Source: Deltaproteobacteria bacterium
Lineage (GTDB): Bacteria > Desulfobacterota > Binatia > UBA9968
NCBI GenBank assembly: GCA_016193465.1
Contig: JACPSE010000068.1
Span: 1-33,568 of the forward strand
DNA length: 33,568 nucleotides
Reading direction: 5' to 3'
The notes under the pieces are model-generated. The model made no database searches and had not been told where the DNA came from. It saw only the letters and a program-made list of their open reading frames with translations. This document shows, in pieces, positions 351-17,437 of this stretch; the stretch's first letter is position 1; each line of letters begins with the position of its first letter. Position numbers and translations under genes: made by a program.

Positions 351-3300
351 TTACTTTCCGCCGCAGGTTGACCGCGCCGCTTGATTCACGATGGCGCCTT
401 TATCCTTCTGATTGATCAGCCCGGATTTCGCTACCCTTTCGGCCTCCCGCGTGACGCAGGATACGTACGTGCCGTGATTTTTCCAGCTCCCGCCCGAGGT
501 TGGTCCGGCGCACGGGCAGGCCTTGGCGATAAGCTGCTCGCCACTGCAGCCGTTGGCGTCGACTACCTTACCAGAGGGAGTACCGGAGCACTGATCTTTA
601 TGGTCGGGAACGCCGTCGCCGTCGCTGTCAGGAGAAAAGGTCCCGGAGCCTCCAGGTCCAACTTCCGTCACCTGCCCGTTGAACTCAACGATGATCGTCC
701 CTTCGCCTCCCAAGTTCTGAACCTCGAACTGTCCATCGGCGATCTCTGCGACTCTGACCGTCACTCCCGTGGGCACGGTCGCAATTCCGGAGGTTCCAAG
801 GAGGATCTGGAATGGTCCCACCACGACCTCCGCGGTCAACGAGCCGCAACTGAGCGGCTGGACCTGACCTCCGGACAGGAGAACTGTGTTGAAGTCACAG
901 AGTTTGATCTGCGCTCCCCCGGGGCCGGCTTTTGCGACAAGCCCGGCAAAGCTCTGGATCGCGGCCGTCCCCGAAAGGATCTCGCCAGAGACCGTGCCGC
1001 AGAGGTGCTTGTTTGAGAAGGTCTTGTTGTTGGAATTATTGCTCTGGTCTTGAGTTCCATCCAGAGACCGATCGACCAGATCTTGGATCCCATCCCCGTC
1101 CTTGTCCAGCACCGGGAAGCCGATGAACTGGCCAAGGGCGACCGGGCCGGTGCCGACCTTCAGATCACCATTCGCGTTCGCGTCTGGCGAGGTAAAGACA
1201 ATCCGCTTGTCGTTCGCCGTGTTGATTACCGACACGGAGTCGTCGGACACGTTGGCCACGTAGACCAGCGCACCATCCGGGGTGACCGCCACGCCTCTCG
1301 GGTTATTCCCGACTCCCACCGTGGTCTTGGTGGGAAGCGCGGGTAACGGCATGGTGAACTCGAGGACAAAGAGGCTACTGCCCGCACCGTCGGTCACGTA
1401 GACGGTGTGCCCGTCCGGATGCGCCGCGACGCCGAACGGACTGGTCGTAGCGCCGAGCTCGATATCGGTGCTGTTGGTATTGAAATTGATCTTGGTGTCG
1501 TCGGTCGTCTTGATCACGGACACGCTGCCGCTTCCACCATTCGCCACATAAACCTTACTGCCATCCGGGCTCACCGCCACACCCTGAGGTGAAGTGCCCA
1601 CGGGCACCGTAGTGACGAAGCTATGGGTCGGCGGAGTCGTCGTGGTGTTCACATTGATCACGGTGACAAAGTTCCCGACCAGGTTTGTCACATAGACCTT
1701 AGTGCCGTCCGGGCTCACCGCAATGCCGAAGGGCACGTTTGCCTGCCCGACGATGGCGAGCTCCACCTGCTGGATCCCGGGGACGTTCAGGTCGAGGTCC
1801 AACAGGGCGTTGGTCGCGGTGTCGATTACCGAGATGGTGTGCGTGAACTTGTTGGGGGCGACGCCGCTGTTCGCCACATAGACCCACTTGCCAAGCGGAT
1901 GCACGGCGACGCCGATGGGATTTAGGTTGACCCCCAGGGGCACCGTCTCCATCACCGTGTTCGTTGCAGTGTTGATGACCGACACGGAGCTGTTTCCAAG
2001 ATTCGCCACGTAGACCCGCGTACCATCCGGGTGCACCGCGACGCCTTCGGGGCTCGTCCCCACCGTGATGGGATTCGCTCCGACGGTGTTGGTGTGGGTG
2101 TCGATCACCGAGACGCTGCCCGCGCTGAAATTGCCGATGTAGGCGCGAAACCCCAGTTGGGCGATCTTGGCGACGAACGCGTCGCCGTTTTCGCCGACGT
2201 TGATCTTATTGGCGAAGTTCTGTAGGAGGGGGTTCATCAGAGGGAAGTCGGGGGAAAAGGTCTGGCCCGTCACGTAGGCGTTGCACGAGGCGTCCAGAGC
2301 GATCCCGCTGGCCGTGTCCCCGCCTGTGCCGCCGAGCAACGTCGAGTAGAGGATCTGGGTACCCGATGGATTCACTTTCGCGACGAAGACGTCGCCGCCC
2401 TCTCCGAATTGCCCTTGGCCCAGTTTCGGGGCGGTCTCGCTCCCCGCGCCGGGAAAGTCGGTCGAATCGGTCTTCCCCGTCACATAGGCATTGCCTTGAT
2501 TATCCACGGCGATGCCAAAGCCTGTGTCCACGTCAGTCCCACCGATGTAGATGGAGTAGATTAAGGATTCGACACAAGTGATATTTGTGTTTTGTACCGG
2601 CGTACAGTTGGCGGGAGAAGGATCCAGCTTCGCGACAAAGACGTCTCCAAGGGCACCCTTGGCGCCGGACCCTAGCTTCGGGGCGATGTTGCCTGGTCCC
2701 AGACCCGGGAAGTTGGCCGCGTTGGTCCCCCCCGTCACATAGATGAAGCCGGAGGAGTCCACCGCTATGGCGAGGTCGATCGCATTCCCGCCACTACTCT
2801 CCTGGCCAGGGCCGCCGCCGAGATAGGTGGAGTAGAGGAGATCGGCACAGTCGTTATACTGCACGGTGGCGTTGGACGGGGTGCAAGGCACTTTCGAGTT
2901 CGAGTTATCCGGCTTCAGCTTCATCACGAAGGCATCTCGGTTGCCGGCTTGAATTCCCTGAAAGGCATTCTTCGTGGGCAAGTCACTGGCTAAGGTCCAT
3001 CCCGCCACGTAGGCGTTGCCGGAGGCGTCCACGGCGATGGCGAAGCCTTCGTCATCCCCCTGTCCGTTCCCAGATGCGATCAGGTAGGTGGAGTAGAGGA
3101 GGTCAGCGCAGTCGTTGTACGTCTCCTTGGGGTTGAGGATGGTGCAGGCGCCATTGGACTTGGAATTATCCGTGCTCAGCTTCGTCATGAAACTGTCCAT
3201 GTGGGGATCAACGGTCGAGAAGGCCCCTGAAGTCACCGGAAAATCGTTGTCAATGCCGCCGCCGCCACAGCTGTTGCCACCGGGACAAAAGGTCGACCCC

Positions 3301-4619
3301 GTCACATAGGCGTTGCTCTGGTTGTCCACAGCGATGCCGAAGCCAAAGTCCTCGTTACTCCCGCCGAGATAGGTGGAGTAGAGGAGAGCGCTTCCTTCGG
3401 AATTAAGCTTCGCCACAAAGGCGTCGGGCTTGTCGCCATTGCAGTTGCCATCCGTGCCGCAGGTCTTGTCGTAGGCGCCGGCGGTGAAGGGAAAGTCCGT
3501 CGAGTATGTAGTGCCCGTCACGTAAGCGTTGCCGGAGGAGTCCACGGCGATGGCATTACCGGAGTCCTCGCCGCTGCCGCCCAGATAGGTGGAGTAGCCC
3601 AAGCTCAACGCGAAGGTGTTGGGATCGACCACCAGCTTCGCCACGAACACGTCGGTCGAGGCGCCGGGGACCAGCGTAGCGGGAATTTTCCCGGCCGGGT
3701 TCATTCCCGCGCCTGGGAAGTTGGACGAGATCGTGGTGCCTGTCACATAGGCGCTGCCGTCGGCGGCCACGGCGATGCCGTGGCCGGAGTCGGCGCCGCT
3801 CCCGCCGAGATAGCTCGAATAGAACAACACCGGATCGATCACCAGAGGCTTGGTGGTGTCGTAGGCGGCGAGTTGGAAACCGACCACTGGCGATTTTGGA
3901 TTGAACACGTAGTCACCGGCGATGGGTTGCTTGACACCGTTGACGAGCTGGTAAATGTGAGGCTTCTTCAACAGGACATCGCCGCTGGAAGTCGACAGCA
4001 CAAGATCGCCCTGGGAGTCGGTCTCAATCTTGTTCGCTCCTTCGAACGCGAGCCTGATCGCCTTGGGGTCGGCACCCGGCGCGACGATGAAGTCATATTC
4101 AAGTTGCCTTTGGTTGCCGTAATAGACGAGGTCAATGCCGGGATAGACATTCTGGTATCTGACCTTGCCGTAGGTAGGGACGTTGGTGCGCCACTTCTTT
4201 GGGTCGTTGCCGATGAAGTAGTTGACCTTACCCGAGAGTTGATCGAGTCCAATCACCTGGGGCTCGGAGTCAGCCCCTACGAGGTTCATGCGGAGAACAG
4301 TTTCGCTCCTCAACACCATCACCGCTTCGTTAGCTGTCAGAAACAGCGCGTAGCCCCTCCCACGGGAGAGGAACTTGACCTCGGCATCGGTCTGGCCCTG
4401 GTTGGCCTCAAAGTGAAGAGGGAGCTTGCCATAGGCTTGCCGCGTTCTGACCATGACACTTGCCTTCATATCCGGAGCGGGTAAAGCCTTTACATGCTGC
4501 TCCTTTGGTAGCTCTTTTGCCGTGACCGGTATGAAGCCATTATCCATCGCCCAGGTTACAGTCAGCAGACCAAAAACCAGGGCGAGCAACCATAAAGTTA
4601 CTTTACTTTTCTGGCCCAT
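351..4619 (-). CDS. Secreted SBBP / YVTN beta-propeller protein with TSP3-like calcium motifs
   Basis: This 1422-residue protein starts at ATG 4619 behind GGAGGAG. Residues 1-25 are an export signal or anchor. About 60-265 match the N-terminal domain usually found with SBBP repeats (HFEANQGQ, VYPGIDLVYYG, LEYDFIVAPGADP). About 265-840 hold at least eight SBBP repeats, each with LLYSTYLGG, DxGxGIAVD and GNAYVTG cores. About 845-1175 switch to seven or eight YVTN-type blades (VSVIDTxTNT, PxGVAVxPDGTxVYVAN). About 1190-1210 and 1335-1350 carry Asp-rich thrombospondin type 3-like motifs (DKDGDGIQD, DSDGDGVPD). The tail is Cys-rich (ACPCAGPTSGGSWKNHG). Such proteins are exported and thought to be surface or matrix scaffolds; ligand and role here are unknown. 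The repeats make assembly collapse possible. Confidence 0.9.
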   Translation of the reverse strand: MGQKSKVTLWLLALVFGLLTVTWAMDNGFIPVTAKELPKEQHVKALPAPDMKASVMVRTRQAYGKLPLHFEANQGQTDAEVKFLSRGRGYALFLTANEAVMVLRSETVLRMNLVGADSEPQVIGLDQLSGKVNYFIGNDPKKWRTNVPTYGKVRYQNVYPGIDLVYYGNQRQLEYDFIVAPGADPKAIRLAFEGANKIETDSQGDLVLSTSSGDVLLKKPHIYQLVNGVKQPIAGDYVFNPKSPVVGFQLAAYDTTKPLVIDPVLFYSSYLGGSGADSGHGIAVAADGSAYVTGTTISSNFPGAGMNPAGKIPATLVPGASTDVFVAKLVVDPNTFALSLGYSTYLGGSGEDSGNAIAVDSSGNAYVTGTTYSTDFPFTAGAYDKTCGTDGNCNGDKPDAFVAKLNSEGSALLYSTYLGGSNEDFGFGIAVDNQSNAYVTGSTFCPGGNSCGGGGIDNDFPVTSGAFSTVDPHMDSFMTKLSTDNSKSNGACTILNPKETYNDCADLLYSTYLIASGNGQGDDEGFAIAVDASGNAYVAGWTLASDLPTKNAFQGIQAGNRDAFVMKLKPDNSNSKVPCTPSNATVQYNDCADLLYSTYLGGGPGQESSGGNAIDLAIAVDSSGFIYVTGGTNAANFPGLGPGNIAPKLGSGAKGALGDVFVAKLDPSPANCTPVQNTNITCVESLIYSIYIGGTDVDTGFGIAVDNQGNAYVTGKTDSTDFPGAGSETAPKLGQGQFGEGGDVFVAKVNPSGTQILYSTLLGGTGGDTASGIALDASCNAYVTGQTFSPDFPLMNPLLQNFANKINVGENGDAFVAKIAQLGFRAYIGNFSAGSVSVIDTHTNTVGANPITVGTSPEGVAVHPDGTRVYVANLGNSSVSVINTATNTVMETVPLGVNLNPIGVAVHPLGKWVYVANSGVAPNKFTHTISVIDTATNALLDLDLNVPGIQQVELAIVGQANVPFGIAVSPDGTKVYVTNLVGNFVTVINVNTTTTPPTHSFVTTVPVGTSPQGVAVSPDGSKVYVANGGSGSVSVIKTTDDTKINFNTNSTDIELGATTSPFGVAAHPDGHTVYVTDGAGSSLFVLEFTMPLPALPTKTTVGVGNNPRGVAVTPDGALVYVANVSDDSVSVINTANDKRIVFTSPDANANGDLKVGTGPVALGQFIGFPVLDKDGDGIQDLVDRSLDGTQDQSNNSNNKTFSNKHLCGTVSGEILSGTAAIQSFAGLVAKAGPGGAQIKLCDFNTVLLSGGQVQPLSCGSLTAEVVVGPFQILLGTSGIATVPTGVTVRVAEIADGQFEVQNLGGEGTIIVEFNGQVTEVGPGGSGTFSPDSDGDGVPDHKDQCSGTPSGKVVDANGCSGEQLIAKACPCAGPTSGGSWKNHGTYVSCVTREAERVAKSGLINQKDKGAIVNQAARSTCGGK

Positions 4620-4826: not shown

Positions 4827-5489
4827 TTATCGACTTGGTTTAGGACTTCCTTCAACACGGGCATGGACGGCTATCTGTAGGCGACTGTGGAGGGCAAGTT
4901 TCTCTAGGATGTGATGCACATGGTTCTTTACTGTGTAGGGAGCGAGGTGAAGCCTTTGGGCGATTTCCTTATTGCTCAAGCCTTCCGAAATCAGGTCAAT
5001 AATCTCCCGTTCCCGCTTAGTTATCCGCACATCGTTCAATTGCACCTTGCCGTTTCTGACCGCAACTTCGACAATCTGAGAAAAGAGCGAACCGGTCAAT
5101 GCCAGTGGGAGAACCTTCCCACCCTGGGCTACCGATCTTATGGTTTTCAGAAAATCATCAAAAGTTGAATCCTTAAGGATGAAGCCTGAGGCGCCTGCTT
5201 TCACAAACTCCATGACATCCGCCTTCACAGGTATGAGACCCATCACGATCACTTTGGTCTCTGGAAACTCCTTTGTAATTATTTCCGCCACGTGCAAACT
5301 GTTTTGATCTCGCAAACACTGATCCAAAAGAACCACCTGGGGTTTTAATTTCTGTTCCTTGGACAAAACACCTTCAAACTTTTCAGAGGCGCCGACCAGG
5401 TCGAGACCCCTCTGTTTTTTGATCATCTCTGTAAGTCCTTCCCTGAGAAGGCGATTATCTTCGATGAGCAATAATCGGATCTTCCTCAT
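4827..5489 (-). CDS. NarL/LuxR-type response regulator
   Basis: The product is 220 residues from ATG 5489; a longer TTG frame adds 17 residues that do not look like a receiver domain. Residues 3-120 form a receiver domain with acidic D11, phospho-acceptor D56 in VVLLDQC and the conserved Lys in GFILKDS. Residues about 150-212 are a LuxR helix-turn-helix (TKREREIIDLISEGLSNKEI, then YTVKNHVHHILEKL). It should bind DNA as a phosphorylated dimer. No partner histidine kinase lies beside it, so the stimulus is unknown. It is divergent from the GH84-senA-senB set and could regulate it, but the sequence does not show that. Confidence 0.88.
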   Translation of the reverse strand: MRKIRLLLIEDNRLLREGLTEMIKKQRGLDLVGASEKFEGVLSKEQKLKPQVVLLDQCLRDQNSLHVAEIITKEFPETKVIVMGLIPVKADVMEFVKAGASGFILKDSTFDDFLKTIRSVAQGGKVLPLALTGSLFSQIVEVAVRNGKVQLNDVRITKREREIIDLISEGLSNKEIAQRLHLAPYTVKNHVHHILEKLALHSRLQIAVHARVEGSPKPSR

Positions 5490-5674
5490 GCGCGGGCCTC
5501 TCACGCGTTTGTCAAACCGGTCGCCCAGATTTGAGAACAAATTTAGGCTCGAGATTTAACCGATTAGCCGCTCTTAGTCAATCTCAGAGCACGAAGAGGC
5601 TGTGATCAACTTGATTCTTGCGGGTCAAGGCTGGGCTAAGAGTGGGTGCACATCCTTGCACCTCCCCTTTTCCT

Positions 5675-6829
5675 ATGCCAGATTGGCTTCGCATGCCAGC
5701 CAAACTTACTTTTCAGCGCCGGGGAATCGTCGAGGGATTTTTCGGTCCGCCGTGGAGCATGGGCCACCGCGCCGCCCTCTTCGAGTTCGGCGCCAACCGA
5801 GGGATGAATACCTATCTCTACGCGCCTAAAGACGACCCCTATCATCGTGAGCGCTGGACAGAGCCTTATCCAAAAAAAGAATGGACGGAGTTGCTCAAAC
5901 TCATCCGCCTCGCGCAAGTGTGCCGGATCGACTTCGTGTACGGCTTCCATCCCGGGAAGGGACTCTGCTTTTCGGCTGAGGAACCCGTCGCTACCCTGTT
6001 AACCAAAGCAAAACGATTTTACGAAGCTGGCGTGCGCACTTTCGCTGTCCTCTTTGACGACATCCCGTCACAACTGGAACACGCGGAAGACAAAATGCCA
6101 TTCGACGGAAGCCTTGCGAAGGCAGAAGGTATCTGGCTCAAGAAGATTTTCACTCAACAACCAGCCGCATGGACGGATGTGGAATGGTGGATTTGTCCTT
6201 CCTATTATACGGAAGATCCGTTGCTGGCCCGCATTTTCGGCGAGTTTGAATCCTCGTTCCTAGAAACACTTACCGACCACCTCCCTCAATCCGTTGCCTG
6301 CTTTTGGACCGGCCCTTCGGTGGTGTCAAAAAAAATCACCCTGGCACACGCCCGCAAAGTTGCCAAGCGGCTCAGGCGCCGCCTGATCCTGTGGGACAAC
6401 TATCCGGTCAATGATCTGAGCATGAGCCAGGAAATGCACCTGAGCCCTCTAACCGGAAGAGACCCGCGATTGCCGGAACAAGTGTATGGCTATTTGAATA
6501 ATCCCCTGCTACAGGAAACACTGAGCTTCATTCCGCTAGCCACTTGCTTCAATTACGCGGCGGACCCTGTTGCCTATAACCCTGAGAAGAGCTGGAGACG
6601 TGTAATCGGGGAAAGATTCGGCGAGGGGGCAATAAAACACTGGCGCGCGATGCGAGGCTTTTGCGAACGCGTGAACCGGGCAAAGAACAAAAACCTGCCC
6701 TTACCCCTATCGTCCAAGGAGCGCTCCCAGCTCATGGCAGCACGCCGCTACCTCCTGGAGAACCGGGGCCGGCGTTGGTTTGAAGAATTTCGACCCTGGT
6801 TGGATCTCATGGAAAAGAGCCCTGCTTGA
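5675..6829 (+). CDS. GH84 beta-N-acetylglucosaminidase (O-GlcNAcase-like), cytosolic
   Basis: I chose ATG 5675 (384 residues); the frame is open from TTG 5618, but those 19 residues do not resemble the family. GH84 hallmarks appear in order: GIVEGFFGPPWS (17-28), MNTYLYAPKDDPYHR (44-58), catalytic Asp pair D128-D129 in VLFDDI, FWTGPSVVSKKI (210-221), and WDNYPVND (240-247), whose N242/D247 spacing matches the substrate-binding Asn and Asp of human OGA. GH84 enzymes remove terminal beta-linked GlcNAc by substrate-assisted catalysis. There is no signal peptide and no N-terminal GH20b or C-terminal binding modules, so it should act in the cytoplasm. The stop lies 36 bases before senA on the same strand, which suggests co-transcription and a substrate tied to the selenosugar pathway (inference). 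Confidence 0.88.
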   Translation: MPDWLRMPAKLTFQRRGIVEGFFGPPWSMGHRAALFEFGANRGMNTYLYAPKDDPYHRERWTEPYPKKEWTELLKLIRLAQVCRIDFVYGFHPGKGLCFSAEEPVATLLTKAKRFYEAGVRTFAVLFDDIPSQLEHAEDKMPFDGSLAKAEGIWLKKIFTQQPAAWTDVEWWICPSYYTEDPLLARIFGEFESSFLETLTDHLPQSVACFWTGPSVVSKKITLAHARKVAKRLRRRLILWDNYPVNDLSMSQEMHLSPLTGRDPRLPEQVYGYLNNPLLQETLSFIPLATCFNYAADPVAYNPEKSWRRVIGERFGEGAIKHWRAMRGFCERVNRAKNKNLPLPLSSKERSQLMAARRYLLENRGRRWFEEFRPWLDLMEKSPA

Positions 6830-6865
6830 TACCGACCTCTGAGTGGAGTAAAAAATAGTCTCACC

Positions 6866-8296
6866 GTGAATGAGACGAGGCAACACCGCGAAACCGATTT
6901 CATCGAAATCGGCAAACTTTCGGCCGCTCAGCTCGCCGACCTCTTGCGCGAGACCCGCGCCCGGACTCTGCAATTAATCACCGACCTGAACGGCGAGCAG
7001 ATGATAGGCCCGCGCCTGCCTATTGTGAACCCTCCCCTTTGGGAGATCGGGCACGTGGCGTGGACCCAGGAATTCTGGATTTTGCGCCATCTAGGCAAAC
7101 GCAGGCCCCTATTGGAGGGCGCGAATGCCCTGTACAACTCCACCGAGGTAGTGCACGACACCCGCTGGGATCTCCCTCTTCCATCGAGAGAAAAAACCCT
7201 GGAGTACATGCAGACGGTTTTAGATCAGGTGATCGGATTCTTAGCCAGCAGGAAGCTCGACAAAGAAGAGTCTTATTTCCCCTTTCTGGTGATTTTCCAC
7301 GAAGACATGCACGACGAAGCCATCGCTTACACGCGCCAGACTTTGGGATATTCACCTCCAAAGCTGAGCGTTCCACGGGCCGACAATAATATAGGAGGGG
7401 GATCCCTGACGGGCGACGCGGAAATCCCTGGCGGAACCTTCATGCTGGGGGCCACCCCCGATTCTCCTTTTGTCTTCGACAACGAGAAATGGGCCCATCC
7501 CGTCCAGGTGAAACCTTTCCGTATCGCGCGCGCGCCCGTTACCAACGCAGAGTTCGCCGCTTTTGTTGAGGATAGAGGGTACCAAAAGCGGGAGTTCTGG
7601 AGCGATGAGGGATGGCGCTGGCTCGAATCCGGAGGCTCCCCTGAGTTGGAACGATCCTTCTCGCGTTTTTGGAACAAAGAGAGTCACCGTGCCTCCGGAT
7701 CTCCTTCGCAAGCGGGCAGAGCCGAACATCCTGTCTACTGGCAGCGCGAGGCCGGAGGACGCTGGCGCCAGCGCGTGTTCGATAGCCTCATGCCGTTGAG
7801 GGAGCATTGGCCCGTTCTTCATGTCAACTGGTATGAAGCCCAGGCTTACTGCAACTGGGCCAGACGCAGATTGCCCGCGGAGGCGGAATGGGAGATGGCG
7901 GCCTCCTGCGAGCCGGGCGCAGGCAGGCGCAGCGTCGGCGAGCGCAAACGGATCTTTCCGTGGGGCGACGAGCCCCCTGCTCCGGACCTGGCCAATCTCG
8001 ACTGGCGCGGAATGGGCTGTCTGGAGGTCGGCGCGCTGCCCAACGGAGATAGCGCCTTCGGCTGCCGCCAGATGATCGGCAACGTATGGGAGTGGACGGC
8101 GAGCGACTTCCAGCCCTACCCGGGCTTCGTCGTCGATCCCTACAAAGAATATTCCCAGCCCTGGTTCAGCACGCACAAGGTTCTTCGCGGCGGCTGCTGG
8201 ACCACGCGCTCGCGCCTTATCCGCAACACCTGGCGCAACTTCTATACCCCCGACCGGCGCGACGTGTGGGCCGGCTTCCGCACCTGCGCAAGGTAG
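6866..8296 (+). CDS. senA: Selenoneine synthase SenA (EgtB-like non-heme iron enzyme)
   Basis: The product is 476 residues from GTG 6866. Residues about 15-165 are a DinB-like domain with the three-His iron site of EgtB enzymes: H63 in WEIGHVAWTQEFW, and H145 and H149 in FHEDMH. Residues about 190-475 are an FGE-sulfatase domain (PVTNAEFAAFVEDRGY, HVNWYEAQAYCNWA, LPAEAEWEMA, GNVWEWT, VLRGGCW, GFRTCA). EgtB homologues join a sulfur or selenium donor to hercynine using O2. The family alone does not separate EgtB from SenA; I call SenA because the next gene, 6 bases downstream, encodes SenB. The product would be hercynine coupled to a selenosugar, resolving to selenoneine. No hercynine synthase (EgtD) lies in the window. 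If the SenB call fails, this is EgtB. Confidence 0.82.
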   Translation: MNETRQHRETDFIEIGKLSAAQLADLLRETRARTLQLITDLNGEQMIGPRLPIVNPPLWEIGHVAWTQEFWILRHLGKRRPLLEGANALYNSTEVVHDTRWDLPLPSREKTLEYMQTVLDQVIGFLASRKLDKEESYFPFLVIFHEDMHDEAIAYTRQTLGYSPPKLSVPRADNNIGGGSLTGDAEIPGGTFMLGATPDSPFVFDNEKWAHPVQVKPFRIARAPVTNAEFAAFVEDRGYQKREFWSDEGWRWLESGGSPELERSFSRFWNKESHRASGSPSQAGRAEHPVYWQREAGGRWRQRVFDSLMPLREHWPVLHVNWYEAQAYCNWARRRLPAEAEWEMAASCEPGAGRRSVGERKRIFPWGDEPPAPDLANLDWRGMGCLEVGALPNGDSAFGCRQMIGNVWEWTASDFQPYPGFVVDPYKEYSQPWFSTHKVLRGGCWTTRSRLIRNTWRNFYTPDRRDVWAGFRTCAR

Positions 8297-8302
8297 CACT
8301 CC

Positions 8303-9256
8303 ATGCGAATCAAGCTCATAACCCCATCCTTAGCGAGGGTCAGAAACGGGAATAGCATCACCGCGGTGCGCTGGGCACGGATTCTAAAACAACTGGGCCA
8401 CCAGATCTTTATGGAACAAAGCTATGACGGTGGGAGGTGCGACCTCATGATCGCCCTGCACGCCCGCCGCAGCTTCGAATCGATCGAACACTTTCGCCGA
8501 CTCCATCCAGATCTGCCGTTGATAGTGACACTAACCGGAACAGACCTGTACCGGGACATTCGCACAAACCGCAACGCTCAAAAGTCCCTTGATTTAGCGG
8601 AGCGCCTCATCGTCCTCCAGTCGATGGGCGTCGCTGAGCTGCCGAAGAGGCTGCGCGCGAAAACCCGCGTCATCTATCAGTCCGCCACTGCGATAAACGG
8701 TAAGGTGTCGGGCTCGCGCAACGGCTCTTTCAAGGTTTGCGTCATCAGTCACCTGCGCCCGGAAAAGGATCCTCTGCGCACAGCGATGGCGGCCAGGCTG
8801 CTCCCAGCCTCGTCCCGCGTGCGGGTCTTGCATATCGGCCGCCCCTTAAGCAAAGAGATGGGCACGAGGCTGCGCGCCGAGGCTGCGCGCAACTCGCGCT
8901 TTCAGTGGTTGGGAGAACTGCCCCATTGGAAGACGCGGCAGGTTTTGGCCAACTCCCATCTCCTTGCCGTCACCTCCCGGATGGAGGGGAGCTCCAACGT
9001 CCTGTGCGAAGCGATCGCCTCCTCAGTGCCTGTGGTTGCCTCGAAGATCCCCGGCTTAATTGGGACGCTGGGAGAAAGCTATCCAGGCTATTTCCCTGTC
9101 GGAGACACCGGTAAGCTTGCCCGCCTCTTACAACGACTAGAATCCGATCCGAAATTTTACCGCAGGTTAAAAACCTATTGCGCCCGTCTGCTGCCGTTGG
9201 TGGACCCCAACCGTGAGGTGGCGGCCTGGAAAGAACTGCTGCAAGAGCTTTTGTGA
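8303..9256 (+). CDS. senB: Selenosugar synthase SenB (GT-B glycosyltransferase)
   Basis: The product is 317 residues from ATG 8303, 6 bases after the senA stop. Its N-terminal half matches the distinctive SenB family (TIGR04348-type): ITPSLARVRNGNSITAVRWA (6-25), CDLMIALHARRS, LTGTDLYRDI and AERLIVLQSMGVAELP. The C-terminal half is a glycosyltransferase group 1 domain (VISHLRPEKDPLRTAMAARL, SRMEGSSNVLCEAIASSVPV), where EGSSNVLCE is the nucleotide-sugar binding loop. SenB attacks a UDP-sugar (UDP-GlcNAc or UDP-glucose) with selenophosphate to give a 1-seleno-beta-sugar for SenA. The selenophosphate synthetase partner SenC is not in the window; a genomic SelD could supply selenophosphate. Confidence 0.85.
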   Translation: MRIKLITPSLARVRNGNSITAVRWARILKQLGHQIFMEQSYDGGRCDLMIALHARRSFESIEHFRRLHPDLPLIVTLTGTDLYRDIRTNRNAQKSLDLAERLIVLQSMGVAELPKRLRAKTRVIYQSATAINGKVSGSRNGSFKVCVISHLRPEKDPLRTAMAARLLPASSRVRVLHIGRPLSKEMGTRLRAEAARNSRFQWLGELPHWKTRQVLANSHLLAVTSRMEGSSNVLCEAIASSVPVVASKIPGLIGTLGESYPGYFPVGDTGKLARLLQRLESDPKFYRRLKTYCARLLPLVDPNREVAAWKELLQELL

Positions 9257-9299: not shown

Positions 9300-10529
9300 T
9301 TAAGATTTTGTTTCCTCGCGGATCCACTTCTTTACCCACGGAAGCAGCGCATAGGCCGGCAGCGACAATAGAAAGGTGAATGCGAAATAATTGCCGTAGC
9401 CGAAGTGCTCCGCCCCTAGACCGCTGAAGCCCCCTACCAACCGTCCGCTCAGAGAAAAGATGGAAGACAAAAGAGCGTACTGAATAGTCGCGTGTTCCTT
9501 CTCACAAACATTCATCAGGAAAGCCAGAAATGCCGCGGTCCCAAGTCCGCCGCTAAACGACTCGAACACCGACGCTCCGTAGAGACCCCATTGACCCAGA
9601 TGGGTCCAGGCAACCAAAGCATAACCGAGATTGGAGACCGCCTGCAGCAACCCAAGCACCCACACCCCGCGAAAGGTCCCGTAGCGTGAAACGAATGCTC
9701 CGCCGGCAAGAGCCCCGGCCACGCTCAGGATGATGCCAAAGGTAGTGGGAACCAGGCCGATCTCGAACACCGATTTGCCCTGGTCCACCCAGAACGGCTT
9801 CACCATCGGACCGATGGCGAACTCGCCCAGCTTGTAACAGAGGACAAACAGCACCAGGGGGACGGCGTTCCAAGTTCCAATCCAACCAACAAAGCCCGCG
9901 AGCCATTGTTCGCGCGCCGCCGCGGGAAGATCGAGGCGCGGCACAAGCAGAGCGACCGAGGCCAACAGAGCGAGAAGGATTGCGGCGACGAGGTAGAGCA
10001 CGGTCCACTGGAGAACGGAGGCGAGCAAAACCATGCCCCCTCCCACCAGCACTAAAGCGACGCGATAGGCTGAGGCGCGCACCCCGTTCGCCGCCCCCTC
10101 CTCCTCCCTTTGAACCAAACCAACAGTGTAGGAGTCGATAGCAATGTCCTGGGTCGCCGAGAGCGTGGTCAGCACCAAAAGAAGAACGATGACGATCCAT
10201 CCCGGATGCGCGACATCCATGAAGGGAAGCAGCCCTACCACGACTGCTATCGCCGACATGCAGGCTACGACCCAAATCCTGCGGTCACCGTAGCGGTGCA
10301 CCAGCGGAGACCAAAAGACTTTTAACGAGTAAGGAAGCTCCAGCAGGCGAAGACCGCCGATGGCCCTGAGAGATCCACCGTGGAGACGAAAATATACCGG
10401 CAGCACTTCCCAGAGAATGGCCGGCGGGCTCCCCTGGATAAAATAGAGCAGCGCCACGATCCCCAGCTTCTTCCGTGATTCCCCGGAAAGCCGGTCGGCA
10501 CCCAAAAGGCTCCAGACACTAAATTTCAT
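9300..10529 (-). CDS. MFS transporter, PAT/AmpG-like
   Basis: The 409-residue protein has about 12 hydrophobic segments. Its N-terminus has the AmpG/PAT-family pattern (LLYFIQGSPPAILWEVLPVY, then LLELPYSLKVFWSPLVHRYG), followed by TLSATQDIAIDSYTVGL with the family's conserved QDIA(V/I)D motif. The family includes AmpG, which imports GlcNAc-anhydromuropeptides, acetyl-CoA carriers and RhtX/FptX siderophore importers, so substrate cannot be assigned. The gene converges on senB with a 43-base gap. A link to the selenosugar genes is possible because AmpG cargo is a GlcNAc derivative, but orientation gives no support for co-expression. There is no strong Shine-Dalgarno before the ATG. Confidence 0.78.
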   Translation of the reverse strand: MKFSVWSLLGADRLSGESRKKLGIVALLYFIQGSPPAILWEVLPVYFRLHGGSLRAIGGLRLLELPYSLKVFWSPLVHRYGDRRIWVVACMSAIAVVVGLLPFMDVAHPGWIVIVLLLVLTTLSATQDIAIDSYTVGLVQREEEGAANGVRASAYRVALVLVGGGMVLLASVLQWTVLYLVAAILLALLASVALLVPRLDLPAAAREQWLAGFVGWIGTWNAVPLVLFVLCYKLGEFAIGPMVKPFWVDQGKSVFEIGLVPTTFGIILSVAGALAGGAFVSRYGTFRGVWVLGLLQAVSNLGYALVAWTHLGQWGLYGASVFESFSGGLGTAAFLAFLMNVCEKEHATIQYALLSSIFSLSGRLVGGFSGLGAEHFGYGNYFAFTFLLSLPAYALLPWVKKWIREETKS

Positions 10530-10810: not shown

Positions 10811-11809
10811 ATGCCCGAGCAACTTTGGTCCATACTGCCTGTTTTCCTGCTAATTTTAGCCGCTGAGTTTGTCAACGGTTGGACCGACGCGCCAAACTCC
10901 ATAGCCACTGTGATAGCCACCCGTGTCCTCCCTCCCTACCAAGCTCTGGTTATGGCCACGGTCCTTAATATCCTAGGGGCGATGTCGGGCACGGCGGTAG
11001 CCGCAACCATCGGCAAAGGAATTATCGATCCATCAATTATCAATATCACCACTGTGGCCGCGGCCATGGTGGGGATTATCTTCTGGAGTACCCTTGCCTA
11101 TTACATGGGAGGCCTTCCGACCAGTGAGAGTCACGCGCTTGTAGCGGGACTAGCAGGAGCAGGACTGGCCACTGCCGGACCCTCAGTCCTCTTGTGGGAA
11201 GGATGGAGCAAGGTTTTCATAGGTTTGTTTTTTTCCACCTTCTTGGGATTTTTGGGGGGCCTGGGAATTATCTTAATACTCTACCGCATTTTTTACCGAA
11301 GCCGGCCTGGGACCATGAGGCTCCTTTTTGGTCGTCTCCAGATTCTCTCTGCGGCCTTTATGGCTTTTAGCCACGGGAGCAATGACGGGCAGAAATTCAT
11401 CGGTGTTTTTACACTGGCCCTCGTTCTCGGGGGCATCCTGCCTGAGTTTCAAGTTCCCCTTTGGGTCATTTTACTCTGTGCAACCACCATGGGGATTGGG
11501 ACTGTTTTGGGAGGCTGGAAGATTATTCAGACAATGGGTATTCGGCTTACCAAGCTAGAGCCGATCCACGGCTTCGCGGCAGAGACCTCAGCCGCGCTGG
11601 TCATCGAGACAGCATCTCGGTTTGGAATACCTTTGAGTACCACCCACACAATCAGCACATCGATTATGGGGGTCGGATCCGTTCAGAGGTTCTCCGCGGT
11701 ACGGTGGGGTCTCGCTGGCGAGATCATCATGGCCTGGATATTGACCTTCCCTGTGTGCGGGCTTATCGCTTACATCGTGGCCTATGTAGTCTCCTATGTC
11801 TCGTTTTAG
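10811..11809 (+). CDS. pit: Inorganic phosphate transporter, PiT family
   Basis: The 332-residue membrane protein has about ten hydrophobic segments and the duplicated PiT signature: FVNGWTDAPNSIATVIATRV near residues 20-40 and AFSHGSNDGQKFIGV near 195-210. PiT proteins move phosphate, usually as a metal-phosphate complex, with protons or sodium as the driving ion. The length fits the short bacterial class. The PhoU-like DUF47 partner often found beside pit is absent. The gene follows a Pho box and a pstS fragment, so it is probably under PhoB control, whereas the well-studied E. coli pitA is largely constitutive. Only a weak ribosome site precedes the ATG. Confidence 0.93.
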   Translation: MPEQLWSILPVFLLILAAEFVNGWTDAPNSIATVIATRVLPPYQALVMATVLNILGAMSGTAVAATIGKGIIDPSIINITTVAAAMVGIIFWSTLAYYMGGLPTSESHALVAGLAGAGLATAGPSVLLWEGWSKVFIGLFFSTFLGFLGGLGIILILYRIFYRSRPGTMRLLFGRLQILSAAFMAFSHGSNDGQKFIGVFTLALVLGGILPEFQVPLWVILLCATTMGIGTVLGGWKIIQTMGIRLTKLEPIHGFAAETSAALVIETASRFGIPLSTTHTISTSIMGVGSVQRFSAVRWGLAGEIIMAWILTFPVCGLIAYIVAYVVSYVSF

Positions 11810-12007
11810 AGTCCTCTCTCTATTACATCGAAATCCTGACATGATACGGGGAAGCGCGCGATAACATCCGAACCTCTTTCTTCATGATCTTTTAACCCTC
11901 TCTTCATCCATCAGTCAAATTCCACCTCTATATTAAGTGTCCAAGGAACCAAAAAGCGCCCGATAACCTAAGAGGAGGGCAATGATGAAATTTCGCTGCC
12001 GGAACCC

Positions 12008-12051
12008 GTGTAACAGCAAATTTATCAGCATGTAACATTCTCGTAACATTT
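12008..12051 (+). promoter_or_regulatory. Pho box upstream of pstS
   Basis: Four 11-base units begin at 12008, 12019, 12030 and 12041. GTAAC lies at 12010, 12032 and 12043 (spacing 22 and 11), and the second unit AATTTATCAGC is degenerate at the same place as in the pit box (AATTCATTGCC). The pstS Shine-Dalgarno AAGGAGG follows at about 12068. The site would activate the pstS-pstCAB-phoU operon under phosphate starvation. Confidence 0.78.
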
Positions 12052-12081
12052 CAGAACTAATCTCGATAAGGAGGAAATCCA

Positions 12082-13068
<987 letters not shown>

Positions 13069-13090
13069 GAACCCAACGGACCGAATAGCT

Positions 13091-13119
13091 CGAAGGGGCG
13101 CCCTCTCGGCGCCCCTTCG
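13091..13119 (+). terminator. Intercistronic hairpin between pstS and pstC
   Basis: A perfect 12-base-pair stem (CGAAGGGGCGCC at 13091-13102 pairing with 13108-13119) has a 5-base loop, CTCTC. No T-run follows, so it is not a standard intrinsic terminator. In this place it more likely acts as an attenuator or protects the 3' end of pstS mRNA, raising PstS over PstCAB. Confidence 0.7.
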
Positions 13120-13160
13120 GTATCCTGAAGCGGCTCTACGACGACCATAAGGATATTCTT

Positions 13161-14117
13161 GTGGATACAAATCCAGCTCCAGCCGAAGCAGCGTGCCCAG
13201 GGCAAGGGGGTCTCGCTGGCACCTTGCCATCAAGCTTCGCCTGGCGACGCATCAGGGAGCGTTTGATTGAGTTTTCCATGTTTCTCTGCGCGCTATCCTC
13301 GGTCGCCATTACCCTGGGAATCGTCGGCACACTGGTTTTGGAATCGTGGCACTTCTTCGAAAACGTCTCCATTTTAGACTTTCTTACCGACACTCAGTGG
13401 ACCATGCTGTTCGAGAATCCGCGGTATGGCATCATGCCGCTCGTGGCCGGCACCGCCGTGACATCTGGTGTGGCGTTGCTAGTGGCGCTGCCTTTGGGCA
13501 CTGTCATTGCAATTTACTTGAGCGAGTATGCCGACCCGCGCGTTAGAGAGATATTGAAACCCATCCTGGAACTCTTGAGCGCCGTTCCCACCGTTGTGTT
13601 TGGTTATTTCGCGTTTCTCTTTGTGACCCCGATCCTCCAGAGCTTTCTGCCAAACCTTCCGGGCTTCAATATGCTGAGCGCCGGGATCGTCATCGGCGTC
13701 ATGATCATCCCTTACGTAAGCTCCTTGAGCGAGGACGCCATGAGAGCCGTGCCAGTGCACATTCGAGAAGGCTCCTACGCGATGGGGGCGACGCGTCTCC
13801 AGACGGCGGTGAGGGTTCTCATCCCGTCGGCTTTCTCCGGCATCGCCTCTGCTTACGTCCTGGGATTCTCCCGGGCGGTCGGAGAGACCATGGTGGTTGC
13901 GATCGCGGCGGGCCAGCAACCTAACCTTACGCTCAACCCCATGGAGGGGGCAGCCACGATCACCGCCTACATCGTTCAGGTCAGCCTGGGAGATCTACCC
14001 CACGGCACCATCGCCTATCAGAGCATTTTCGCGGCCGGCCTGACGCTGATGGTGATGACCCTTGTTTTCAACATCGCCGGTTACCTTCTCCGCAAACGCT
14101 GCCGGGAGATTTACTGA
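13161..14117 (+). CDS. pstC: Phosphate ABC transporter permease PstC
   Basis: The product is 318 residues from GTG 13161, with AAGGA 8 bases upstream. A hydrophilic N-terminus of about 35 residues precedes six membrane segments. The permease-ABC contact loop is REGSYAMGATRLQTAVRVLI, followed by SAFSGIASAYVLGFSRAVGE, which is typical of PstC. With PstA it forms the membrane channel of the high-affinity phosphate importer. The gene is 2 bases from pstA. Confidence 0.96.
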   Translation: MDTNPAPAEAACPGQGGLAGTLPSSFAWRRIRERLIEFSMFLCALSSVAITLGIVGTLVLESWHFFENVSILDFLTDTQWTMLFENPRYGIMPLVAGTAVTSGVALLVALPLGTVIAIYLSEYADPRVREILKPILELLSAVPTVVFGYFAFLFVTPILQSFLPNLPGFNMLSAGIVIGVMIIPYVSSLSEDAMRAVPVHIREGSYAMGATRLQTAVRVLIPSAFSGIASAYVLGFSRAVGETMVVAIAAGQQPNLTLNPMEGAATITAYIVQVSLGDLPHGTIAYQSIFAAGLTLMVMTLVFNIAGYLLRKRCREIY

Positions 14118-14119
14118 AG

Positions 14120-15028
14120 ATGGAAGATATAGAAATCAGAGTAGCCCGCCGCAAGCGCATGGATGGCATTTTCGCCATTCTCGGTCTGGTCTCCACATTC
14201 GTCGGCATGCTCACCCTCGCTGCCTTAATAGTCGATCTTGCCATTGCCGGCTCAGAACGCCTGACACAGACTTTCTTCACTTCCTTCCCATCCCGCTTCC
14301 CCGACCAGGCGGGAATACTCTCGGCCTGGGTCGGCACGACGCTGGTGATGCTGGTCACCGCAGCCAGCGCCGTGCCGTTAGGGGTCGCCGCGGGGGTCTA
14401 CCTAGAGGAGTATGCCCCCGGGAACTGGCTCACCGCCTTGATTGAGATCAACATCGCGAACCTGGCCGGGGTGCCGTCCATCGTCTATGGCCTCATGGCG
14501 CTGGGTCTTTTCGTTTACCAGTTCCGTCTCGGCCAGAGCATTCTTTCGGCCGGCCTGACTTTGGCTCTCCTTATCTTGCCCATCGTCATCGTCGCGACGC
14601 GCGAGTCCGTACGGGCCGTTCCCGGCAGCATGCGCGAGGCCGCCTACGCCTTAGGGGCCACTAAATGGCAAACCGTAAGGGACCACGTACTACCCTATTC
14701 CACTGGCGGGATATTGACGGGGGTCATCATCGCCCTGTCCCGGGCCATCGGCGAAACCGCCCCCTTGATTACTATTGGCGCTCTCACTTTCATTGCCTTC
14801 CTGCCGGGCCCTCCGCTCGGGGCGGAATTTCCCTTTGTGTCCTTCGAATGGCTTATGTCGCCATTCACCGTCATGCCGATCCAGATGTTTAATTGGACTT
14901 CGCGGCCGCAGCATGCTTTCCATCTCAATGCGGCCGCGGCGGGGCTTGTCCTGATGGTCATGACCCTGATCATGAACGGCATCGCCATCTATCTCCGTTA
15001 TCGCTTCCGCAAACGAATCAGATGGTAG
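14120..15028 (+). CDS. pstA: Phosphate ABC transporter permease PstA
   Basis: The 302-residue product has six membrane segments. The EAA-type loop reads [20 protein letters not shown] and is followed by [20 protein letters not shown]. Regions such as [20 protein letters not shown] and GVPSIVYGL are characteristic of PstA. It pairs with PstC. The last 7 bases overlap the start of pstB, so the two are probably translationally coupled. Confidence 0.96.
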
Positions 15029-15828
15029 AAGCGGCGGGAGTAAAACCGGCTGTGGAAAACCGATCCCAAATCACCAACCCTATCATCCAGGTGCTGGACC
15101 TCAGCGTCTACTACGGCGTCACCCGGGCTCTGAGATCCATTAACCTCGAGATCCCGGAAAAAAAGGTCACGGCCCTTATCGGCCCTTCGGGCTGCGGTAA
15201 GACAACGCTGCTCCGTTCTTTGAACCGGATGAACGATCTCATCCAGAATGTGCGCACTATGGGCAGCATCAAGCTTGACGGCAAAGATATCTACGCCCCA
15301 TCCACGGATGTCATCAACCTGCGACGGAGGGTAGGAATGATCTTCCAGAAGTGGAACCCTTTCCCCAAGAGCATCTATGAGAACGTGGTTTACGGGTTGA
15401 GGATCGTCGGCATCAACAATCGAAGCCAATTGGACGAAACCGTCGAAAAGAACCTCAAGCGGGCGGCTCTGTGGGATGAGGTCAAGGACAACCTGCACAA
15501 GAGCGCCTCCGATCTCTCCGGGGGCCAGCAACAGCGTCTATGCATCGCCCGGGCCCTGGCCGTGGAGCCGGAGGTGCTCCTGATGGACGAGCCTTGTTCC
15601 GCCCTCGATCCGATCTCGACGGCGAAGATCGAGGAACTGATCCACGAGCTCAAAGAAAGCTTCACCATCGTCATCGTGACCCACAACATGCAGCAGGCCG
15701 CCCGGGTCTCGGACTACACGGCTTTTTTCTACTTGGGGGAACTGGTAGAATTCGGCGAGACCAGCAAGATCTTCACCGCCCCGGACAAGCAGCAGACGGA
15801 GGATTACATCACCGGACGCTTTGGATAA
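15022..15828 (+). CDS. pstB: Phosphate ABC transporter ATP-binding protein PstB
   Basis: I chose ATG 15022 (268 residues), which overlaps the pstA stop; a longer frame from 14893 would lie inside pstA. ATPase motifs are Walker [11 protein letters not shown]-loop [17 protein letters not shown], signature LSGGQQQR, Walker [14 protein letters not shown] and switch His in [13 protein letters not shown]. It energises phosphate import. Length and motifs are normal for PstB (about 257-270 residues). Confidence 0.97.
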
Positions 15829-15835
15829 CAATGTT

Positions 15836-15899
15836 CAACTTTTGAACCCTTGAACCCTTAAACCGGAAGGGAAAAGTTCAAAGGTTCCATAGTTCAATG
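15836..15899 (+). repeat. TTGAACCC short repeats with inverted arm, pstB-phoU spacer
   Basis: TTGAACCC occurs at 15842 and 15850, followed by TTAAACC. The second half (GTTCAAAGG, AGTTCAA) is roughly the reverse complement, so the spacer could fold into an imperfect hairpin. The same TTGAAC/GTTCAA theme recurs in the phoU-phoB spacer and after phoR. Confidence 0.6.
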
Positions 15900-15909
15900 A
15901 GGAGTGGCC

Positions 15910-16599
15910 ATGCCCCACGCTGAGCACACAGACAAAAAATACGAGGAAGAGCTAAAGAAGCTGCGCGAGGATATCCTCTATATGGGGGGCCTGGTGGAAG
16001 ATCAGATCCAGAAAGCGGTGAAGTCGCTGGTCGATCGGGATTCCCCGCTGGCGGAAACGATCATCCAGAGGGATCAGGAGGTAAATCGCCTTGATATCGA
16101 AATCGATGACCTCTGCATCCGGCTATTGGCCCTCCACCAACCGGCGGGCAAGGACCTCCGTTTCATCACCACGGCCTTGAAGATTACGACCGACCTTGAG
16201 CGCATCGGGGACATGGCAGTCAACATCTGCGAACGGGCTCTGGAGCTCAACCTGGAGCCCCAGCTCAAACCCTACATTGACATTCCGCGCATGGCACAGA
16301 TCGCGCAATGGATGATTCGGGAGAGCCTTGATGCCTTTGTCCGGAAGGACACGGACCTGGCCCTCAAAGTCTGTAAAGATGACCGCCAAGTCGATGATCT
16401 CAACAGCCAGGTCTTCCGCGAAACAATAAGCTTCATGATCGAGGATCCCCACACGATCAACCGAGCCATGAAAATCACTTTTGTCTCAAAATACTTGGAA
16501 CGGATCGCGGACCATGCCACCAACATTGCTGAGATGGTCATCTTTATGGTCAAAGGCAAGAGCATCCGGCACCTGAAAGAACTACCCCAGTCGGTTTAA
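15910..16599 (+). CDS. phoU: Phosphate signalling protein PhoU
   Basis: I chose ATG 15910 (229 residues) because GAGGAG lies at a good distance; GTG 15904 is an alternative. PhoU carries two three-helix bundles with metal-binding acidic motifs; here DLERIGDMAVNICERAL (first repeat) and YLERIADHATNIAEMVIFM (second repeat) are visible. It links PstSCAB to the PhoR kinase and turns off the Pho response when phosphate is ample. It closes the pst operon, directly before phoB-phoR. Confidence 0.96.
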   Translation: MPHAEHTDKKYEEELKKLREDILYMGGLVEDQIQKAVKSLVDRDSPLAETIIQRDQEVNRLDIEIDDLCIRLLALHQPAGKDLRFITTALKITTDLERIGDMAVNICERALELNLEPQLKPYIDIPRMAQIAQWMIRESLDAFVRKDTDLALKVCKDDRQVDDLNSQVFRETISFMIEDPHTINRAMKITFVSKYLERIADHATNIAEMVIFMVKGKSIRHLKELPQSV

Positions 16600-16624
16600 C
16601 TTACGTCGCGCAGGCGAAAGCGAG

Positions 16625-16714
16625 GTTCGAGACGTTCAAGATGTTCGAGTCGTTCGAATCGTTCGAGCAGTTCGAGACGTTTTGAACGATTGAAACGGTT
16701 TGAACCTTTGAAAC
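16625..16714 (+). repeat. Ten 9-base tandem units (GTTCGAGAC type) between phoU and phoB
   Basis: From 16625 the sequence keeps a strict 9-base period for ten units: GTTCGAGAC, GTTCAAGAT, GTTCGAGTC, GTTCGAATC, GTTCGAGCA, GTTCGAGAC, then diverged GTTTTGAAC, GATTGAAAC, GGTTTGAAC, CTTTGAAAC. TTCGAA-like cores are self-complementary, and the second half carries TTGAAC, the complement of GTTCAA, so the array can form hairpins. It ends 9 bases before the phoB start and replaces a normal ribosome-binding region. Confidence 0.85.
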
Positions 16715-16723
16715 TACTTGTTT

Positions 16724-17437
16724 ATGGCTTCGAAGAAAATCTTGGTGGTTGAGGATGAGCCGGATATCCGGAAGCTTGTACACTATAATCTGACGCAGGA
16801 GCGCTTCAAAGTTCTTGAGGCGGAGGATGGAGAGAAGGCCCTTAAAACAGTCCAGCGGGAGAAACCGGACCTGGTCGTCCTGGATTTGATGCTCCCGGGC
16901 CTTTCCGGACTTGAAGTTTGCCGGAATCTGCGCGAGCGAGAGGAGACAGCAAGAATTCCTATTCTCATGCTCACAGCCAAGGCCGGCGAGGCGGACCGGG
17001 TGGTCGGTCTGGAGATGGGAGCGGATGACTATCTCACCAAGCCCTTCAGTCCGAGGGAGCTGGTTGCCCGGGTGAAGGCCATCCTTCGCAGGACGGAGAT
17101 GCAATCCGCTTCCCTCGTGGCCGAGGTTTACGAGAAGGGGTCCCTAAGGATCAACTTTTCGACCTACGAGGTCTCTGTCAAAGAAAAAGCCGTTAAGTTA
17201 ACCTTGAAGGAATTTGAACTGCTCCGCTTTCTGGTCCAAAATCCCAACCGGGTCCTCAGCCGCGATCAGCTCTTGGATCGGGTATGGGGGGGAGAGGTTT
17301 TCGTGGATCCCCGCACGGTGGACGTACATATCCGCAGGCTGAGGAAGGCTATTGAAAAGAACGACCGCAAGCCCCAATGGGTACTAACGGTCCGGGGAGT
17401 GGGGTATAAATTCGATGAAAAGGCCTTGGAAAAATAG
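16724..17437 (+). CDS. phoB: Phosphate regulon response regulator PhoB
   Basis: The product is 237 residues from ATG 16724. The receiver domain has KILVVEDEPDIRKL, phospho-acceptor Asp in LVVLDLMLPG and Lys in DDYLTKPFSPREL. The winged-helix OmpR-type DNA-binding domain covers about 130-235 (LTLKEFELLRFLVQNPNRVL, RTVDVHIRRLRKAIE, VRGVGYKF). It should bind the Pho boxes at 10681 and 12008. The last 23 bases overlap phoR. No clear Shine-Dalgarno is visible because the repeat array runs almost to the start codon. Confidence 0.93.
   Translation: MASKKILVVEDEPDIRKLVHYNLTQERFKVLEAEDGEKALKTVQREKPDLVVLDLMLPGLSGLEVCRNLREREETARIPILMLTAKAGEADRVVGLEMGADDYLTKPFSPRELVARVKAILRRTEMQSASLVAEVYEKGSLRINFSTYEVSVKEKAVKLTLKEFELLRFLVQNPNRVLSRDQLLDRVWGGEVFVDPRTVDVHIRRLRKAIEKNDRKPQWVLTVRGVGYKFDEKALEK

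Follow-up and report, generated by a model that had tools for sequence, protein, structure and literature searches.

Why should a gene cluster for the synthesis of selenoneine begin with a glycoside hydrolase? The question is raised by a stretch of 33,568 nucleotides (hereafter the window; contig JACPSE010000068.1 of assembly GCA_016193465.1) from a Deltaproteobacteria bacterium of the class Binatia, in which a GH84 gene is followed by senA and senB, the genes for selenoneine synthase and selenosugar synthase. SenB makes 1-seleno-beta-N-acetylglucosamine (SeGlcNAc; GlcNAc, N-acetylglucosamine) from uridine diphosphate (UDP)-GlcNAc and selenophosphate, and SenA joins this selenosugar to hercynine, supplied by EgtD, giving hercynyl-SeGlcNAc selenoxide. 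Only senA, senB and senC are described as selenoneine genes in the literature covered, and the release of the sugar is described as spontaneous. A literature search for a glycoside hydrolase or N-acetylglucosaminidase connected with selenoneine returned nothing relevant; the primary selenoneine (Kayrouz 2022) and ovoselenol papers lay outside its coverage, and an earlier mention is thus possible. We find that the GH84 is a conserved member of a selenoneine operon variant in an order of uncultured bacteria. The new element is the GH84 as a member of the operon; otherwise this is a variant of the known selenoneine pathway.

The conservation of the arrangement carries this finding. A GH84 search of public genomes returned a well-separated group with 56-74% identity, followed by a fall to 40% or less. 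The 148 genomes of the window's class were searched for GH84, SenA and SenB, and the loci were then read. The GH84 gene lies upstream of senA on the same strand in 22 genomes, 15 from the window's family and all seven GH84-bearing genomes of a sister family in the same order. It directly precedes senA in 16 of them, at distances from a possible 4-base overlap (L232) to 338 bases (L212), and one to three co-directional genes for a VOC protein, an alpha/beta hydrolase or a binding protein intervene in the other six. A co-directional arrangement in 22 genomes of two families excludes chance and a coincidence in a lone genome, and the adjacency kept in related genomes upholds the operon membership proposed by a reading of the window from its sequence alone (the sequence-only reading). 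As for the intervening genes, L022 (6415-8055), L023 (9187-10834) and L027 (9166-11752) each have, in the same orientation as GH84 and senA, genes for a VOC protein of two domains and for an alpha/beta hydrolase of the HsaD/BphD-like type, joined in L027 by one for an SsuA-like binding protein; in L208-L210 an alpha/beta hydrolase stands alone.

Co-occurrence across the class follows the same pattern. A GH84 of this clade and SenB occur together in 22 genomes, GH84 only in one, SenB only in eight and neither in 117 (Fisher p 1.3e-18, a value that ignores shared ancestry). The sole GH84-only genome, G406, has a contig that ends after senA. Three of the SenB-only genomes belong to another family, four have a contig that ends in or just upstream of senA, and the last is G422, discussed below. 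SenB was found in none of the ten genomes of the class carrying GH84s of other clades.

One could object that the GH84 was placed beside senA once, in an ancestor, and has been inherited since without functional meaning. All linked cases do fall within one order, the counts are not phylogenetically independent, and the same GH84 occurs unlinked to senB in betaproteobacteria. Nevertheless, we consider such passive linkage very improbable. The loci of the window's family have a convergent AmpG-like gene next to or near senB throughout, while at the sen loci of the sister family AmpG was not found and the genes beyond senB differ; the GH84-senA-senB order is the same in both, at a GH84 identity of about 60%. 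The core thus outlives its surroundings, its position and strand being kept while neighbours change or intervene, and the catalytic residues of the GH84 are under strong constraint.

In the window itself the three genes lie on the plus strand, spaced by 36 (6830-6865) and 6 (8297-8302) bases (Table 1). These gaps, given by the sequence-only reading and confirmed from the starts and stops, argue against separate promoters, in agreement with that reading; a scan for promoters and terminators gave matches near the shuffled expectation and carries no weight here. The GH84 start had been placed too early, at the in-frame ATG 5675. Homologues point instead to the ATG at 5693 (MPAKLTFQRRG), and not to 5675 or 5618. 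They begin six to eight residues before the first barrel strand, and no signal peptide is visible by inspection (no predictor was run), as had been proposed.

Is the protein a genuine GH84 enzyme? It matches PF07555 with 280 bits (cut-off 25), and its nearest sequence relative in the PDB is 5diy, the O-GlcNAcase (OGA) of T. terrenum (E-value 4e-70). The latter is also the best fold match (TMq 0.88) of its AlphaFold model, a GH84 TIM barrel with a mean predicted local distance difference test (pLDDT) score of 95.6. In a comparison of 25 clade members with 78 other GH84s, the GlcNAc-subsite and catalytic residues checked (G12, K43, D119, D120, Y168, W221, N223, D228 and N257, T. terrenum OGA numbering) are all kept in the clade, including the Asp pair that the sequence-only reading had seen. 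The GlcNAc contacts among these residues are background on the family. GH84 enzymes cleave beta-linked GlcNAc and are specific for this sugar.

The clade departs from other GH84s at position 14 (same numbering), which is Phe in all 25 members and Tyr in 77 of the 78 others. A review of simulations of the T. terrenum enzyme describes an interaction between Tyr14 and the carboxylate of Asp120, the acid/base residue (PMC8819650). T166S, S83H and M259L (again in T. terrenum numbering) are likewise fixed in the clade. A GlcNAc-specific site with altered acid/base surroundings fits the same sugar with a different leaving group, and the clade-wide Tyr to Phe change suggests as much. The lone Phe14 outside the clade (L034) was followed up and set aside, with no selenium genes among its neighbours. 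Compared with the GH84 O-GlcNAcases (T. terrenum OGA, NagJ, BT_4395 and human OGA), the window protein has the same fold, the Asp-Asp pair and a complete GlcNAc subsite. Unlike them, it consists of the catalytic domain only, is apparently cytoplasmic, is linked to sen genes and has Phe at the Tyr14 position.

Taken with the conserved position, these features make the GH84 very probably a functional part of selenoneine metabolism, and an action on some kind of Se-GlcNAc bond is somewhat probable. UDP-GlcNAc is the preferred donor of SenB, an enzyme promiscuous in its sugar donor (PMC10891094), and the preferred sugar matches the specificity of GH84, which we count in favour of the following proposal. 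The SenA product, a selenoxide, can be reduced to a selenoether by thiols or ascorbate (PMC10903977). In a cytoplasm rich in thiols, the pathway would come to a dead end at this selenoether, in which GlcNAc is beta-linked through selenium to a heteroaryl leaving group. The cytoplasmic GH84 would hydrolyse the beta-Se-GlcNAc bond of the hercynyl-SeGlcNAc selenoether, and possibly of the selenoxide too. As in GH84 enzymes generally, whose nucleophile is the 2-acetamido group of the substrate (PMC10636738), this group would attack C1 to form an oxazoline; the low-pKa imidazolyl selenolate, that is selenoneine, would depart with little or no need for a general acid; and water would convert the oxazoline to GlcNAc. 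The GH84 would thereby rescue the dead-end product and return GlcNAc. The cleavage of thioglycosides by O-GlcNAcase without general acid catalysis is the subject of a paper cited by title in PMC10636738. We put the probability at about 40% that the clade is a dedicated selenoglycosidase, which has lost the Tyr contacting the general acid/base and frees selenoneine by cleaving the SenA product at its Se-GlcNAc bond. The hercynyl-SeGlcNAc selenoether would be its main and likeliest single substrate, at the same odds. The sequence-only reading had offered recycling of SeGlcNAc, clearance of misformed glycosides and release from the coupled product; we infer the last of these, refined to hydrolysis of the selenoether. 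By analogy only, the EgtE step of ergothioneine synthesis likewise frees a chalcogen-bearing imidazole from a coupled intermediate, although EgtE is a pyridoxal phosphate-dependent C-S lyase and the proposed GH84 step a glycoside hydrolysis.

The same operon and sugar evidence could also be explained by an enzyme acting earlier. The GH84 could hydrolyse free SeGlcNAc, a seleno-phospho-GlcNAc intermediate or wrongly made Se- or S-GlcNAc conjugates to selenide and GlcNAc, and so limit the reactive selenosugar. The donor promiscuity of SenB (PMC10891094) makes off-target selenosugar conjugates plausible. Hydrolysis of SeGlcNAc would, however, undo the product of SenB, a futile cycle within one operon unless regulated, and we regard this explanation as unlikely. 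Alternatively, the Se-GlcNAc conjugate of selenoneine could be a stored or exported form from which the GH84 mobilises selenoneine on need. A selenoether has been reported from selenoxide reduction, and conjugation would be reversible with a glycosidase encoded in the same transcription unit. With GH84 and SenA in one operon, however, cleavage and synthesis would not be separated in time, and storage appears distinctly improbable.

Several observations weigh against a dedicated selenoglycosidase. The hercynyl-SeGlcNAc selenoxide is reported to fragment spontaneously towards selenoneine (PMC10702425; PMC11639659). S-GlcNAc-cysteine serves as a mimic that GH84 enzymes are taken not to hydrolyse (PMC8386111, PMC10636738); the proposed cleavage thus needs the better leaving group of a heteroaryl selenolate. 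SenB also accepts UDP-glucose, and the glucose product could not be cleaved by GH84 through the proposed mechanism. In G422, senA-senB has upstream sequence but no GH84 in it. In G426, the remaining member of the window's family, the GH84 is cut by a contig end and none lies just upstream of senA, which is on another contig. Variovorax and most sen-carrying genomes manage without a GH84, which is absent from 62 of 67 senB-carrying betaproteobacterial genomes checked; the GH84 is thus not required for the sen pathway. The place in the sen operon given to it by the sequence-only reading therefore stands for the window's order, but the gene is accessory, being absent from the canonical clusters and from those betaproteobacteria. 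Furthermore, neither selD nor senC, for the supply of selenophosphate, was detected in the window genome G000 (100% complete by estimate, a draft of 238 contigs), G423 or G431.

Nevertheless, 20 of the 23 genomes with GH84 and sen genes do have selD, three same-genus relatives of the window organism among them, and senA-senB is intact in the three selD-negative genomes. The missing selD may reflect loss, an assembly gap or a sulfur-using variant. The SelD genes of most genomes of the class have one in-frame TGA and presumably encode a selenocysteine-containing SelD.

The AmpG-like gene raises another possibility, namely that the GH84 serves general cytoplasmic GlcNAc turnover, in muropeptide recycling with AmpG or in O-GlcNAc removal, and is tied to sen only by inheritance or shared regulation. 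The activity of GH84 enzymes on beta-GlcNAc and the AmpG-like transporter downstream in the window's family agree with this. Furthermore, four of the 11 genomes searched (G297 and all three of the sister family) yielded no NagZ. However, the window genome has a NagZ that exceeds its cut-off, so that the GH84 is not needed there for muropeptide recycling, and most of the genomes searched in the window's family have NagZ as well. AmpG is not beside the clusters of the sister family, where GH84 stays with senA, and the Phe that replaces Tyr at the acid/base Asp throughout the clade points to a different leaving group. General GlcNAc turnover is rather unlikely on this evidence, and the AmpG-like gene probably lies outside the selenoneine pathway. 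A GH84 that replaces a missing NagZ beside AmpG was rejected on the same two grounds, NagZ in the window genome and no AmpG beside the clusters of the sister family.

The sen-linked proteins group with three from betaproteobacteria in a single clade of a 103-member GH84 tree (support 100/100, stem of 0.93 changes per column), and every other GH84 falls outside it. The betaproteobacterial GH84s nest inside the window's family, which suggests that they arrived by horizontal transfer. In four betaproteobacterial metagenome-assembled genomes (L024, L025, L026, L243), the sen-clade GH84 stands alone, on another contig than the resident, divergent senA/senB. In the betaproteobacterial family concerned, senB occurs in 67 of 74 genomes and GH84 in six; this case therefore neither supports nor damages the GH84-sen link, and we dropped it as independent support. 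A sister-clade locus (L061) was discarded as well, with no sen-related neighbours.

Do the two partner genes belong to the selenoneine pathway? SenA and SenB exceed the cut-offs of NF041186 (420) and TIGR04348 (300), and SenB keeps the equivalents of N20, T23, H58, R61, T83, T85, R155, K158, E231 and E239 of V. paradoxus SenB, residues whose importance is shown in PMC10891094. A loss of SenB function through the change EGGAHV to EGSSNV was considered and rejected; the protein retains K158, E231 and E239, and the reported effect of H235 on activity is only partial. By phmmer, the window SenA scores highest in the PDB against OvsA (8ux5, 343 bits), which belongs to the same superfamily and is the selenoxide synthase of the ovoselenol pathway; in part, this is because some 50 residues are missing there from the SenA of Variovorax. 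The window protein is 42.6% identical to OvsA and 44.5% identical to Variovorax SenA. Around the iron ligands it carries motifs of the SenA type (GHVAW..QE.W, H.TRW, PWF.T..VLRG), which are lacking in OvsA. A tree places a SenA/OvsA clade apart from EgtB and leaves the split between the two open, OvsA and Variovorax SenA being long branches. An ovoselenol reading was set aside on the motifs and on linkage to egtD, found in the window's relatives and unlike the OvsA case. Both point to hercynine as the likelier partner of SenA.

Seven loci of the window's family have egtD close upstream, and L220 reads egtD-GH84-senA-senB on one strand. The window genome has its EgtD on contig C121 (4248-5138; 289.9 bits, marginally below the cut-off of 290.9); the sen-linked homologue in L027 exceeds the cut-off and can be aligned with EgtD of solved structure. 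At L127 (4230-7654), L128, L209, L210, L212, L215, L220 and L027, egtD is divergent from an ATP-binding cassette (ABC) transporter in which permease and binding protein are fused (OpuBC type). PDB relatives include choline-binding proteins and the ergothioneine transporter EgtUC, and in several genomes egtD and the transporter adjoin the GH84-sen block. Uptake of hercynine, ergothioneine or selenoneine is possible.

With the V. paradoxus-type senA-senB-senC cluster, the window shares members of the SenA and SenB families that pass the curated cut-offs, the SenB catalytic residues and an egtD in the genome. Unlike that cluster, it has the GH84 as first gene and no selD among the clustered genes. 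Its senA and senB are co-directional, whereas they are divergent on two annotated plasmids, from Methylorubrum and Hydrogenophaga (L264, L265), one copy lying by an IS6-family transposase and the other by chromate and heavy-metal transport genes.

Elsewhere in the window, positions 351-4619 on the minus strand encode a protein of 1422 amino acids with DUF7948, SBBP and YVTN/lactonase-type beta-propeller repeats, adjoined by a lone LuxR-type response regulator (4827-5540). A compact phosphate block (10811-19244) holds genes for a PHO4-family transporter, PstS, PstC, PstA, PstB, PhoU, PhoB-like and PhoR-like proteins in a row.

Table 1. Features of the GH84-senA-senB locus, in window coordinates
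Feature	Position	Strand	Basis
GH84 (NAGidase) catalytic-domain protein, 378 amino acids	5693..6829	+	PF07555, E-value 2.4e-83; start set by homology
Phe17 codon, clade-specific Tyr to Phe at the Tyr contacting the acid/base Asp	5741..5743	+	alignment
Catalytic Asp-Asp pair, D122/D123 (D119/D120 of T. terrenum OGA)	6056..6061	+	25/25 clade members, 78/78 other GH84s
senA, selenoneine synthase (EgtB-like non-heme iron enzyme), GTG start, 476 amino acids	6866..8296	+	NF041186, 505 bits
senB, selenosugar synthase (GT-B), 317 amino acids	8303..9256	+	TIGR04348, 400 bits
AmpG-like major facilitator superfamily transporter, convergent to senB	9300..10529	-	TIGR00901, 268 bits, below its cut-off of 350

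If the proposed role is true, the last step of selenoneine synthesis would be enzymatic in these bacteria, and some bacteria would finish or rescue the pathway with an enzyme. The GH84 family would gain a role in small-molecule selenium metabolism, and the enzyme would be a natural glycosidase acting on a sugar bound to selenium, which is unusual as a GH84 substrate. Such an enzyme could also be a tool to raise the yield of selenoneine.

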